DNA of 35,181 bases from a virus (IMGVR_UViG_3300025141_010397:1-35181); one strand, 5' to 3'; counted from the first letter of the stretch, positions 31,811 to 35,181 are shown. Translations and numbers: made by a program. Notes: generated from the sequence alone by a model not told the origin.

Positions 31811-32527
31811 ATGAAATTATTACTTGAAAATTGGCGCGAATACACCAGACAGGTGGAATTAGAAGAAGGCATTGGCGCACTCGTTCCTGGCTCTTCTGAG
31901 TGGAAGATGAACAAAGCCATCAAAAAATTAAAGAGAGAATTGGAGGATGGCAAGCATAAGAGCACTTGGCAAGCGATAGCTCAGGAGCTAAAAGAAACGC
32001 AGCAAGCGTGGGAGTTGCTCAAGAAATGGAAAACCCTTGACGACTCTGAAAAAGAAATCCTATGGGATCAAATCAAAGACGTTGCCAAGACTACGACTTT
32101 GGCCGCCGCATTTGCAGCCCCCATCGGAGGGTCGGTGTGGATTCCTTTAATAATGCCTTATCTAAAGAAGCATGGTCTTGTGGCTTCTGCCTTTATGAAT
32201 GAAAATGTCTTCTATGTTGATGTAAACCTTCTTGTCCCTTCCGAAGAGATGGGGCACGGGAAAGAACACGATTGCCCTGGGGCTGAATGCGATGCCATAG
32301 TCCAGCAAAAGATGAACTTGATTAGCCAAGGTAATTTGGAACCTATTGAGGTATGCAACCAGAAGCCCGTGAACTCTTACCGCGTTCAAGACCAAGAGGT
32401 GGCACCTAAAAGCGGAGTTAGCGAGCCTTTCTACCATGTATTGAACGGGCACCATCGTCTAGAAGCGGCAAAGCGTCTGGGGGTTAAGAAGGTTCCCGTC
32501 TATCTCACCCCCAAGGAGCAAGAATGA
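31811..32527 (+). CDS. Putative packaged protein with ParB/sulfiredoxin-like C-terminal domain
   Basis: A 238-residue protein. It opens with MKLLLENWREYTRQ, nearly identical to the next gene's start, and LEE-G (residues 17-20) fits the T4 prohead-protease site (L/I-x-E, then A/G/S). A helical region follows with a hydrophobic segment (LAAAFAAPIGGSVWIPLI), then a C-terminal ParB/Srx-type domain: NGHHRLEAAKRLGVKKVPVY. That domain can bind or cut nucleic acid or nucleotides. The design suggests a protein loaded into the capsid and injected. The next start overlaps its stop by ATGA. Confidence 0.75.
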   Translation: MKLLLENWREYTRQVELEEGIGALVPGSSEWKMNKAIKKLKRELEDGKHKSTWQAIAQELKETQQAWELLKKWKTLDDSEKEILWDQIKDVAKTTTLAAAFAAPIGGSVWIPLIMPYLKKHGLVASAFMNENVFYVDVNLLVPSEEMGHGKEHDCPGAECDAIVQQKMNLISQGNLEPIEVCNQKPVNSYRVQDQEVAPKSGVSEPFYHVLNGHHRLEAAKRLGVKKVPVYLTPKEQE

Positions 32528-33432
32528 AACTCCTACTTGAAAATTGGCGAAAATATATCTCAGAGGCAAGCAAGATACGCCGAATCAAATCCAACATTCT
32601 GACTGAAGTCACTGAGGAAGAACTACGTGACTTCCCGCTATCGGACGAGGAACTTGCTAAGATTAAAAAATGGGCTGGCCTCTCTGGCGACCCTCTCTTC
32701 TTAGGCTCAGGCACAATGGGGTCTGCTTATCAATTTGGCGATGAGGTGCTCAAGATCACCAAAGACTTTGCCGAAGCGTCTGCTACGCAATCTATCGCAG
32801 GCCAAGAGCATCCCAATGTTTACAATGTGAAGAAGGTTGGCCGCCGCTTTGTGAAGGGCGACGAACAACCTGGTGAAATGCCGCAGCACCCTTTTTTGAT
32901 TGTATACGACTTGGTGGGTGAAGAGGTTGGAGGTTCAGACTTGCCGACACCAAAACAACAAGAAATTATCAAAACCATTCACGCAAGGCCAGATGAAATT
33001 TACTATCAGTGGCTCGCCAACTTTGACGAGGTGCGCCGCAAATTTGCCACCTGGATTAAAAAGAATGGTGCCAAGGTGGAAGAAAATCCTATGTCCAGGT
33101 TTCAAAACCACTCCAGCAAGCTTCGAGGACTTATGGCCGAAGCTGGCTTAAACGAACTAGAGCGAGAAGCCCTTACCAAAGCCTGGGCCACTGGCGTTGG
33201 AGTCTATTCAGCCGACAACATTAACACCGCTGAAGGTGCTCTCAAGGCCCTGGCATCTCCTATGCTTGATTATGTAAATGATATCTCCAGTGGCTTAACA
33301 TTTTTGGAACAAAATGGTATACATTTTAGAGACCTTAAGACAACCAACGTTATGAACGACCGAGGTCGCTTGGTTATCATTGACATCGGCAAGTCAGATG
33401 TCAAGCAAAGAGAACCGATTGAGAAAATCTAA
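32524..33432 (+). CDS. Putative packaged protein kinase
   Basis: A 302-residue protein. The N-terminus MKLLLENWRKYISEA (residues 1-15) contains I-S-E-A, an exact fit to the T4 gp21 cleavage pattern and close to the end of the T4 targeting peptide (FIAEA). The body has kinase landmarks: Gly loop LGSGTMGSAY (60-69), Lys77 in VLKIT, the catalytic HFRDLKTTN (Asp270, Asn275) and DIG at 287-289 for DFG. The activation region after it is very short. Key catalytic residues are present, so activity is possible. It may phosphorylate host proteins at infection. AAGGAG precedes the ATG. Confidence 0.82.
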   Translation: MKLLLENWRKYISEASKIRRIKSNILTEVTEEELRDFPLSDEELAKIKKWAGLSGDPLFLGSGTMGSAYQFGDEVLKITKDFAEASATQSIAGQEHPNVYNVKKVGRRFVKGDEQPGEMPQHPFLIVYDLVGEEVGGSDLPTPKQQEIIKTIHARPDEIYYQWLANFDEVRRKFATWIKKNGAKVEENPMSRFQNHSSKLRGLMAEAGLNELEREALTKAWATGVGVYSADNINTAEGALKALASPMLDYVNDISSGLTFLEQNGIHFRDLKTTNVMNDRGRLVIIDIGKSDVKQREPIEKI

Positions 33433-33433
33433 A

Positions 33434-33643
33434 GTGAAGAAAGTCTATCAATATTTAACGCATCACTTGACGGAACAGCGCGAGTCATATTTTGTCCATA
33501 TGTGGAACGCTTGGAAGCTCGCAGCAAATCTTTTGCTTGTGACTTCAAAATGTTTTGTCCACTCTTTCTTTCCCTTCCTATTTACTAAGGCGGTATCGAG
33601 TAAAATTGAATACTTAGACAAGCTGGCAAGGAGAATGAAGTGA
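33434..33643 (+). CDS. Small DUF6356-like protein
   Basis: A 69-residue protein with a GTG start, 1 base after the kinase stop. The pattern HHLTEQRESYFVHMWNAWKL, a hydrophobic middle, then VHSFFPFLF and a C-terminal SSKIEYLDKLA resembles DUF6356, a family of small bacterial and phage proteins of unknown role. It probably associates with membranes. The next gene overlaps by GTGA. Confidence 0.65.
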   Translation: MKKVYQYLTHHLTEQRESYFVHMWNAWKLAANLLLVTSKCFVHSFFPFLFTKAVSSKIEYLDKLARRMK

Positions 33644-35181
33644 CCAAGTTTCAGGACAAATGGCGCACGTTTTTGAGCGAAGAGCGAATCGAGGAAAAGA
33701 CCCGCGCCGAAAAAGAGGGAGTGAAGCTGCCCTCCACCGCCGAACAACTCGAAAAATACGTAGCCAAAGATTTTACAAAGCCTGAATATTACATGCAGTT
33801 CAGTAACGTCAACAAGCTAGGGATCAACCCAAAGTCTGGCTACAGAACTCCGCTTGGTATCTATTCTTATCCAGTAACCCAACAGATTTATCGCCTGTTC
33901 ATTAACGGAAGACTTCCGTTTGCCCAAGATAGAAAGTACATCATTGTATTCAAGCCAAGAGAAGATAAAAACATCATTGTTTCTCTTGGGAAAAAGAACA
34001 ACGGGGGCTTAGACGACAAGGCTTATGCCGAAGCGATTGAAAATTTGCTCAGCAAAGAGCTTGCCGATGGGGAGACCAGGCGCGGTGCGTATGTGGTTTT
34101 CCGAAGATTTACACAAGGTGAAGGCTTTAAACCCGAACAAATACAAGAGATAGCCGCCGCATACACTAGAAAAAAAGATTTTATACAAAGGGTTTACAAT
34201 AACGGAGCTATCACACAGTTCACTGAACTCATCGCAGATGAGTTTTTAAATGAGAAGCCTTATGGTGAAGTGCCATCGTATGAAAAAATGCTTGACAAGA
34301 TTAAAAAGAATTACAGTTGGGCTGCCGGTGACTCCTACTTTATAGAGGACGTGAAAAATTTACAAAAAGATTTCACAGAGGAAGATTACAGAAAGTTTGT
34401 CGATTGGCTCGATACGCAGGATCTAAGTCCAGAGTTATCCGCTGAAGTCAACCTTAAAAAACTAACTGATTATCTTAATTACGATCCGACCAATTCCGCC
34501 GAGGCCATCCAGCAGACACAATATTGGACTAACTTAAAGGATGACGCTCGCAGCAAAACCAATCTTGGCTTGATATGGGCGCTTAGTTACAGAATGCAGA
34601 ATAATCCTCGTGTCTGGAGGACGCTTTTTCAAAAGCACCTTGGAATCGATGGGGTTGTGGATGCTGGAGGCGAAGGGCTTATTCACCCATCGGAAAAGAT
34701 CCAGGCGGTTTTCTTTTCCAAGGACGCAGTTGAGCAGGTGGCAACCATCAGGAACACTGAAACACCAGATGCGATTAACCGGCGCAAAGATTACCTTATG
34801 AAATCTACGATTCAGCGAGCCGCCACTGAATTCTATACGGATACGCTTGGCGTGAACCCGACTCAAAAAATGATAAGATCTGCACTTGGAGCCACGAGCA
34901 AGGTTCAAGAATCTCACGGCTGGAAAATAGACGGGGCAAACAACCCAGAAGTTTTTGTTAAGTGGTTTCTTGGACAGGAAATTTTCCCTCCTCAACAAAT
35001 CCCAGGCGAGTTTGATGGCCAAGAAAAAAGATATAAGCATGTAAAGAAAAAAAGTCTTAATCAATTCCACGCGATTCTAACAACGAGGTGGATAAGTAGC
35101 TATTTCAGAGAAACTATCGTCGAAGCGCACAGAAACGCAGTAGACGCAGCCTGGACAACTGAAGAATCGTTGCAGAGCCAG
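33640..35181 (+). CDS. Large putative packaged protein, 3' end outside window
   Basis: An open frame of at least 514 residues that runs off the window. The GTG start overlaps the previous stop (GTGA). The N-terminus MTKFQDKWRTFLSEE shares W8-R9-x-[Y/F]11 and L-S-E (12-14) with the two cassette proteins upstream, although the residue after Glu14 is Glu. Two constrained segments stand out: GYRTPLGIYSYPV with LPFAQDRKYIIVFKP (about 65-110), and DAGGEGLIHPSEKIQAVFFS (about 342-361). I believe similar motifs occur in other marine-phage proteins, but I know no function. An ADP-ribosyltransferase-like or other enzyme domain is possible and not demonstrated. Confidence 0.72.
   Translation, partial: MTKFQDKWRTFLSEERIEEKTRAEKEGVKLPSTAEQLEKYVAKDFTKPEYYMQFSNVNKLGINPKSGYRTPLGIYSYPVTQQIYRLFINGRLPFAQDRKYIIVFKPREDKNIIVSLGKKNNGGLDDKAYAEAIENLLSKELADGETRRGAYVVFRRFTQGEGFKPEQIQEIAAAYTRKKDFIQRVYNNGAITQFTELIADEFLNEKPYGEVPSYEKMLDKIKKNYSWAAGDSYFIEDVKNLQKDFTEEDYRKFVDWLDTQDLSPELSAEVNLKKLTDYLNYDPTNSAEAIQQTQYWTNLKDDARSKTNLGLIWALSYRMQNNPRVWRTLFQKHLGIDGVVDAGGEGLIHPSEKIQAVFFSKDAVEQVATIRNTETPDAINRRKDYLMKSTIQRAATEFYTDTLGVNPTQKMIRSALGATSKVQESHGWKIDGANNPEVFVKWFLGQEIFPPQQIPGEFDGQEKRYKHVKKKSLNQFHAILTTRWISSYFRETIVEAHRNAVDAAWTTEESLQSQ

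Follow-up and report, generated by a model that had tools for sequence, protein, structure and literature searches.

Three neighbouring genes in a fragment of an uncultivated T4-like marine phage encode proteins that begin with a common 14-residue tag (consensus MKLLxENWRxYLxE), and this tag recurs across viral sequences on proteins whose bodies are otherwise unrelated. The tag probably marks proteins that are packed with the phage DNA and injected, and we consider it quite likely that a lineage of T4-related phages, uncultivated and mostly marine, uses it as its capsid-targeting propeptide. The whole system would then be a lineage-specific, heavily used variant of T4 capsid targeting. The capsid-targeting sequences of T4 itself are already known; what appears to be new is a distinct and longer tag in another T4-related lineage, carried by many genes per genome and placed on enzyme-like cargo. 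Injected phage proteins act ahead of any phage gene expression, and few of them have been identified beyond T4 and some giant phages. If the tag does mark injected proteins, sequence alone would be enough to list about 100 or more candidate early effectors of never-cultured phages, and one could try the tag as a means of getting proteins loaded into phage heads.

Tagged genes in the window

The window is the whole 35,181-base virus fragment IMGVR_UViG_3300025141_010397:1-35181, and positions are counted from its first base. The three neighbours lie on the plus strand and start at 31811 (MKLLLENWREYTRQVELEEG), 32524 (MKLLLENWRKYISEA) and 33640 (MTKFQDKWRTFLSEE, with a GTG start). An earlier note on this DNA had aligned the three proteins from residue 1 at W8-R9-x-[YF]11, and this pattern is present in all of them. 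The run of identical DNA that it reported for the first two genes is real, with a length of 16 bases (TACTTGAAAATTGGCG) instead of 15, and the two candidate cleavage triplets that it pointed out, I12-S-E14 followed by A15 in the kinase and L17-E-E19 followed by G20 in the ParB-like protein, are in the sequence as described.

The first gene (31811..32527, plus strand) encodes a ParB-like protein of 238 aa. Judged from the sequence and the profile of 109 tagged bodies described below, its 14-residue tag (tag 1, 31811..31852, plus strand, MKLLLENWREYTRQ) has W8-R9-x-Y11 and lacks L12 and E14; the nearest L/I-x-E is L17-E-E19, ending at base 31867. An insert of about 115 residues follows, and then a ParB-like domain at approximately residues 132-238, assigned from PHROG matches and from alignment to homologues in two other viral stretches, L063 and L068. 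The PHROG ParB matches are weak, the best being 1.6e-05 over residues 206-236. In both homologues the ParB-like sequence comes directly after E14 of the tag (MKLLLENWRGYLNE followed by NVFYV in L063, MKLLFENWKRFLNE followed by RVFYV in L068, the tags ending in YLNE and FLNE), so that the body starts exactly after the predicted cut. The window protein has FMNE followed by NVFYV at the far end of its insert, and in comparison with L063 and L068 we read this internal tag-like junction (F128-M-N-E131, 32192..32203, plus strand) as a relict tag. A domain seems to have entered a tagged protein here, and the tag-like junction now lies in its interior.

The second gene (32524..33432, plus strand) encodes a protein-kinase-like protein of 302 aa with an HFRDLKTTN catalytic loop and a DIG motif; its Pfam Pkinase match (5.5e-06) falls under the curated cut-off. 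Tag 2 (32524..32565, plus strand, MKLLLENWRKYISE) has I12-x-E14 at the canonical position, with the predicted cut between E14 and A15. Kinase orthologues are 55-80% identical and every one begins MK[LV]L[LF]ENWR; the one in L331 has lost the L/I-x-E. The third tagged protein (33640..35181, plus strand) belongs to no known family and comprises at least 514 aa, continuing past the window end, and its orthologue in L333 is 581 aa long and 65% identical. By motif match, its divergent, GTG-started tag (tag 3, 33640..33681, plus strand, MTKFQDKWRTFLSE) has W8, R9, F11, L12 and E14, with a predicted cut after E14, and all 14 residues are kept in the orthologue. The earlier note had overlooked that L12-S-E14 stands at the canonical position here too, and this third protein is a better member of the tagged set than was realised. 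The kinase and the 33640 protein appear to be the better capsid-cargo candidates of the three; we are less sure that the ParB-like protein would be cleaved at its own tag. Structure models of the kinase (mean pLDDT 53) and of the 33640 protein (mean pLDDT 42) were unusable.

Recurrence of the tag across viral genomes

Viral sequences were searched with a degenerate DNA pattern for MKxxxENWR, which fixes residues 6-9. The pattern occurs in at least 120 viral stretches, with 171 tagged ORFs among the matches listed; loci have several of them, and a single genome has as many as 9 exact matches to the pattern. Removal of related bodies left 109 distinct bodies among the matches listed, and the residue counts that follow refer to these. 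Residues 3-4 are mostly L/I, and three positions outside the search pattern are conserved as well, with Y/F at residue 11 in 97/109, L/I at residue 12 in 81/109 and E at residue 14 in 80/109. Conservation ends at residue 14, and information is at background beyond residue 15. The proposal that the tag is modular and sits on unrelated bodies is thereby borne out, the 109 listed bodies having only residues 1-14 in common. The triplet L/I-x-E, which is absent from the search pattern, stands at residues 12-14 in 70 of the 109, and 9 others have it one residue later, ending in E15, compared with about 2 per position farther along the same proteins (binomial p ~1e-91 against a background of 1.9%). 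Approximately 30 of the 109 tags, including window tag 1, have no L/I-x-E at 12-15.

As a control, the identical DNA pattern gave only 57 matches in 84,980 bacterial and archaeal species genomes. Most of these are one recurring internal sequence of a single host enzyme family, ENWRW...VPFY.R.GKR, which we take to be glucose-6-phosphate dehydrogenase. The L/I-x-E triplet is present in 2 of the 57 (Fisher p ~1e-15 for viral versus bacterial matches), and both of these are N-terminal and lie on contigs resembling phage from the tagged lineage. When four tagged genomes were scanned whole with the tag profile, strong N-terminal matches numbered 8 in G012 (with none internal), 14 in G016, 11 in G002 and 4 in G076; internal matches were few and scored far lower. 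By reading, the 14 residues mix charged and aromatic side chains with at most three consecutive hydrophobics, and do not have the extended hydrophobic core behind a charged start that marks a signal peptide or membrane anchor. A tblastn search of phage isolates with a 20-residue tag sequence and two window proteins gave no match, and no paper describing the tag or its sequence was found in the open-access literature.

Comparison with T4 capsid targeting and other phages

The closest parallel is the capsid-targeting sequence of the T4 internal proteins IPI, IPII and IPIII (Mullaney and Black; PMC9026906). Ten residues are enough for entry. Experiments on IPIII have assigned targeting to residues 4 and 7 and processing to residues 8 and 10; an aspartate at position 10 blocks processing and leaves targeting intact (PMC9026906). 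IPII and IPIII begin MKTYQEFIAE, and alignment at the cut site places W8, Y/F11, L/I12 and E14 of the tag opposite IPIII Y4, F7, I8 and E10. The likeness to the T4 peptide that the earlier note had claimed is therefore found at the experimentally mapped residues. The aromatics equivalent to Y4 and F7 are present in all three window tags, and W8 is also kept in divergent tags found without the pattern. The processing residues L/I12 and E14 are present in the kinase and the 33640 protein, and are not found at 12-14 of the ParB-like protein.

We counted the joint motif [WYF]xx[YF][LI]xE in whole or nearly whole genomes, taking the first 30 residues as N-terminal. Occurrences at N-termini and elsewhere were 10 and 0 in G012 (p 5e-10), 10 and 7 in G016, 6 and 5 in G002, 3 and 3 in G076, and 3 and 9 in T4, where the N-terminal ones are in IPII, IPIII and gp61.1 only. 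Since the motif was written with the T4 tag known, the T4 matches calibrate it and are not an independent test. Divergent tags in these genomes (MEKLFENWQKYLFEE, MQPLLEAWRKYLKES, MSFDKWREFLAEA, MSLYHDKWRGFLSEG) keep the four positions while ENWR is changed. As a separate observation, T4 gp61.1 (NC_000866 18966-19130; L448:367-531) is a 54-aa hypothetical protein outside the known internal proteins, and its start, MKTFKEFIKED, resembles a capsid-targeting sequence.

For cleavage in T4, the review gives the rule simply as L/I-x-E (PMC9026906). The site had been proposed as L/I-x-E before A/G/S; the triplet holds (70 of 109 listed bodies at 12-14), but a preference for A/G/S after it is not seen, these residues occupying P1' in 22/70 among the matches listed against a background of about 21%. 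A cut before Gly20 of the ParB-like protein would fall at a non-canonical position.

The two systems share a short N-terminal peptide on otherwise unrelated proteins, the order aromatic, two residues, aromatic, L/I, x, E, a gp21-type protease (here in the large tagged records), and clustering of the tagged genes. They differ in that the tag here has 14 residues versus 10, with an added MKLLxEN half and Trp for Tyr, and in that there are 4-14 tagged genes per genome compared with three internal proteins in T4. The cargo here includes kinase-, ParB-, HAD-, Zeta- and NUDIX-like proteins, and its packaging is predicted from sequence. That capsid-targeting sequences let T4-like phages package varied proteins has already been suggested in review (PMC9026906).

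Two other phage groups invite comparison. Reports on SPN3US and other giant phages describe head and ejected proteins, with head proteins cut by a prohead protease as the head matures (PMC5694885, PMC7411985, PMC10052503); these phages form another group, and the likeness is one of description rather than of propeptides aligned with the tag. The far-T4 phages (PMC4360716), of which RM378 is the cultured member, share a T4-type capsid and portal with the tagged phages. A term search of that 2015 paper finds it silent on prohead protease, internal proteins and capsid targeting. The nearest sequenced records by capsid protein include RM378, Mel-JY01 and immuto, and the tag is absent from these isolates.

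Prohead protease and head genes

No gp21-type protease or head gene was recognised in the 35-kb window. The gp21-like protease that the earlier note had suggested seeking elsewhere is present in relatives: the family to which T4 gp21 belongs (Peptidase S77, PF03420) was found above cut-off in 14 of 24 tagged records in a first set and 5 of 29 in a second, which by size comprises all 11 tagged records of at least 139 kb and 8 of the 42 smaller ones. It was found in 0 of 50 random contigs, which are mostly small and do not reach the length of the large tagged records; compared with the smaller tagged records, the difference has p 0.0013. Two of the protease-bearing genomes are close to the window. 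G012 has homologues of 17 window ORFs, most at 156.8-181.5 kb and syntenic with the window, including UvsX-like (64%), DnaE-like (61%) and GroEL (61%) proteins, and G076, a 185-kb record, encodes a kinase with 80% identity to that of the window. The tagged-phage proteases are about 30% identical to T4 gp21, and their specificity is deduced from their putative substrates. H85 and S140, the catalytic residues of T4 gp21, are invariant when six proteases from tagged phages, one isolate and T4 are aligned.

The major capsid protein of tagged phages carries a conserved L-[RK]-E at 58-60, close to the position of L-T-E65, the propeptide boundary in T4. In G012 the position that genes 67/68 occupy in T4, with the portal on one side and the protease on the other, is taken by an acidic tagged protein (MKLLLEHWNRYLQEEEE), and VATWRTFLNEG is found close to the start of the gene that follows the protease. 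The capsid propeptide segment before the putative cut, M-A-x-L-L-E-N-Q-A-K-E-L-L-R-E, is similar to a tag of the form M-K-L-L-F-E-N-W-R-K-Y-L-L-T-E, with one extra residue, and this tag-like end is seen in G012 (134213-136003), G016, G002 and G076. The tag profile scores it no better than background, and the likeness was noticed first with the search expression composed afterwards, so we treat it only as a lead. A ribosomal protein S21-like gene also lies among the clustered head genes of a tagged phage (L143:8472-8714, L279:3143-3370), and an RpsU is annotated in that region of Mel-JY01.

Selection on the peptide and possible explanations

There are several possible explanations for a repeated gene start. 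Among the matches listed, the 60 bases ahead of the tags on 108 distinct bodies have almost no information in common, the third codon positions of the tag vary, and one peptide is encoded by 83 different 27-base versions; selection therefore acts on the peptide. The same observations make it very improbable that the repeat is a DNA-level feature, such as a recombination junction, promoter or translation-start element, that is incidentally translated. Such a feature would fit the 18 of 108 listed tags that have 26 identical bases, which comprise two common 27-base versions found on 12 and 6 different bodies, and these indicate that copying or exchange of tag DNA probably takes place as well. 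It would fit, too, the orphan tags in L062:2167, L065:5885 and L078:3537, where MKLLLENWRG[IL] and a stop precede an untagged gene as if genes had been swapped at the tag; these may be sites of cargo gene replacement. Exchange at the tag may, however, coexist with a role of the protein. The T4 late-promoter sequence TATAAATA showed no tie to tagged genes.

A recent gene duplication or mere chance, leaving three alike but functionless starts, might be suspected from the adjacency of the genes and the 16 bases that two of them share. It is scarcely credible given that the bodies are unrelated and that the 14 residues, with conservation ending at 14, recur on 109 listed bodies, a recurrence (at least 120 viral stretches and 171 listed ORFs) that already contradicts it. 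The tag could instead dock its proteins to some other phage or host assembly unrelated to the head, for example the replisome, RNA polymerase, a membrane or a phage compartment. Several cargoes are enzymatic-looking (kinase, Zeta-toxin-like ATPase, HAD, GNAT, NUDIX, exonuclease), the tagged genes of the window are not part of a head operon, and about 30% of the tags listed have no cleavage triplet, all of which would suit docking; yet we judge it unlikely, as it leaves unexplained the triplet fixed at 12-14, the match to the mapped IPIII residues and the consistent presence of the protease.

The capsid-targeting explanation, which we favor, retains the core of the earlier note, a modular T4-type tag served by a gp21-like protease; recurrence, the fixed L/I-x-E, the IPIII residue match and the protease in relatives speak for it. 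Its details on P1' and Gly20 need revision. Against it stand the listed tags that have no L/I-x-E, the absence of any A/G/S preference at P1', the isolates near by capsid protein that have no tag, and a window in which no protease or head gene was recognised. During head assembly the prohead core would bind the 14-residue tag via the aromatics W8 and Y/F11, and the tagged protein would be enclosed together with the scaffold. A gp21-type protease would then cut after E14 of L/I-x-E and free the cargo, which would stay alongside the DNA inside the head until its injection into the next host. We would put at somewhat below even the broader idea that this uncultivated T4-like lineage has its injected repertoire written in a readable sequence code, with cargo swapped behind a standing tag that possibly derives from the propeptide end of the major capsid protein.

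Putative cargo proteins and neighbouring genes

Pfam and PHROG matches in 100 tagged proteins include GNAT, Zeta toxin/P-loop kinase, M23 peptidase, endolysin-like, NUDIX, RNase T-type exonuclease, DUF192, protein kinase, HAD-like and ParB-like families, each with one to three members, and most of the 100 are without a Pfam family. An ADP-ribosyltransferase cargo, suspected by eye from YHAT motifs, was dropped after Pfam gave no support. A portal match among the tagged proteins, probably in L050 (MKFIVENWRQIPFW), is without L/I-x-E and seems to fit the pattern by chance.

Between the kinase and the third tagged gene, the window encodes a small protein (33398..33643, plus strand, start codon uncertain). 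It is untagged in the window, L331 and L112, and its homologue in L108 (blastp, 53% over 59 aa) is tagged (MKLLLENWRKHLDDQNEGYFEHM...). Farther upstream, at 8485-30404, host-type genes seem by reading to be present for PEP carboxykinase, cysteine synthase, IMP dehydrogenase, GroEL, Hsp20, peptide deformylase and adenylosuccinate synthetase; a ClpP-like protease in the same region is supported by Pfam. A phage stretch whose tagged gene, GroEL and small protein are similar by eye to those of the window lies in a 2.85 Mb MAG described as a 'WOR-3 chromosome' (L424, CP070664.1), which suggests a provirus or phage DNA joined into the MAG chromosome.
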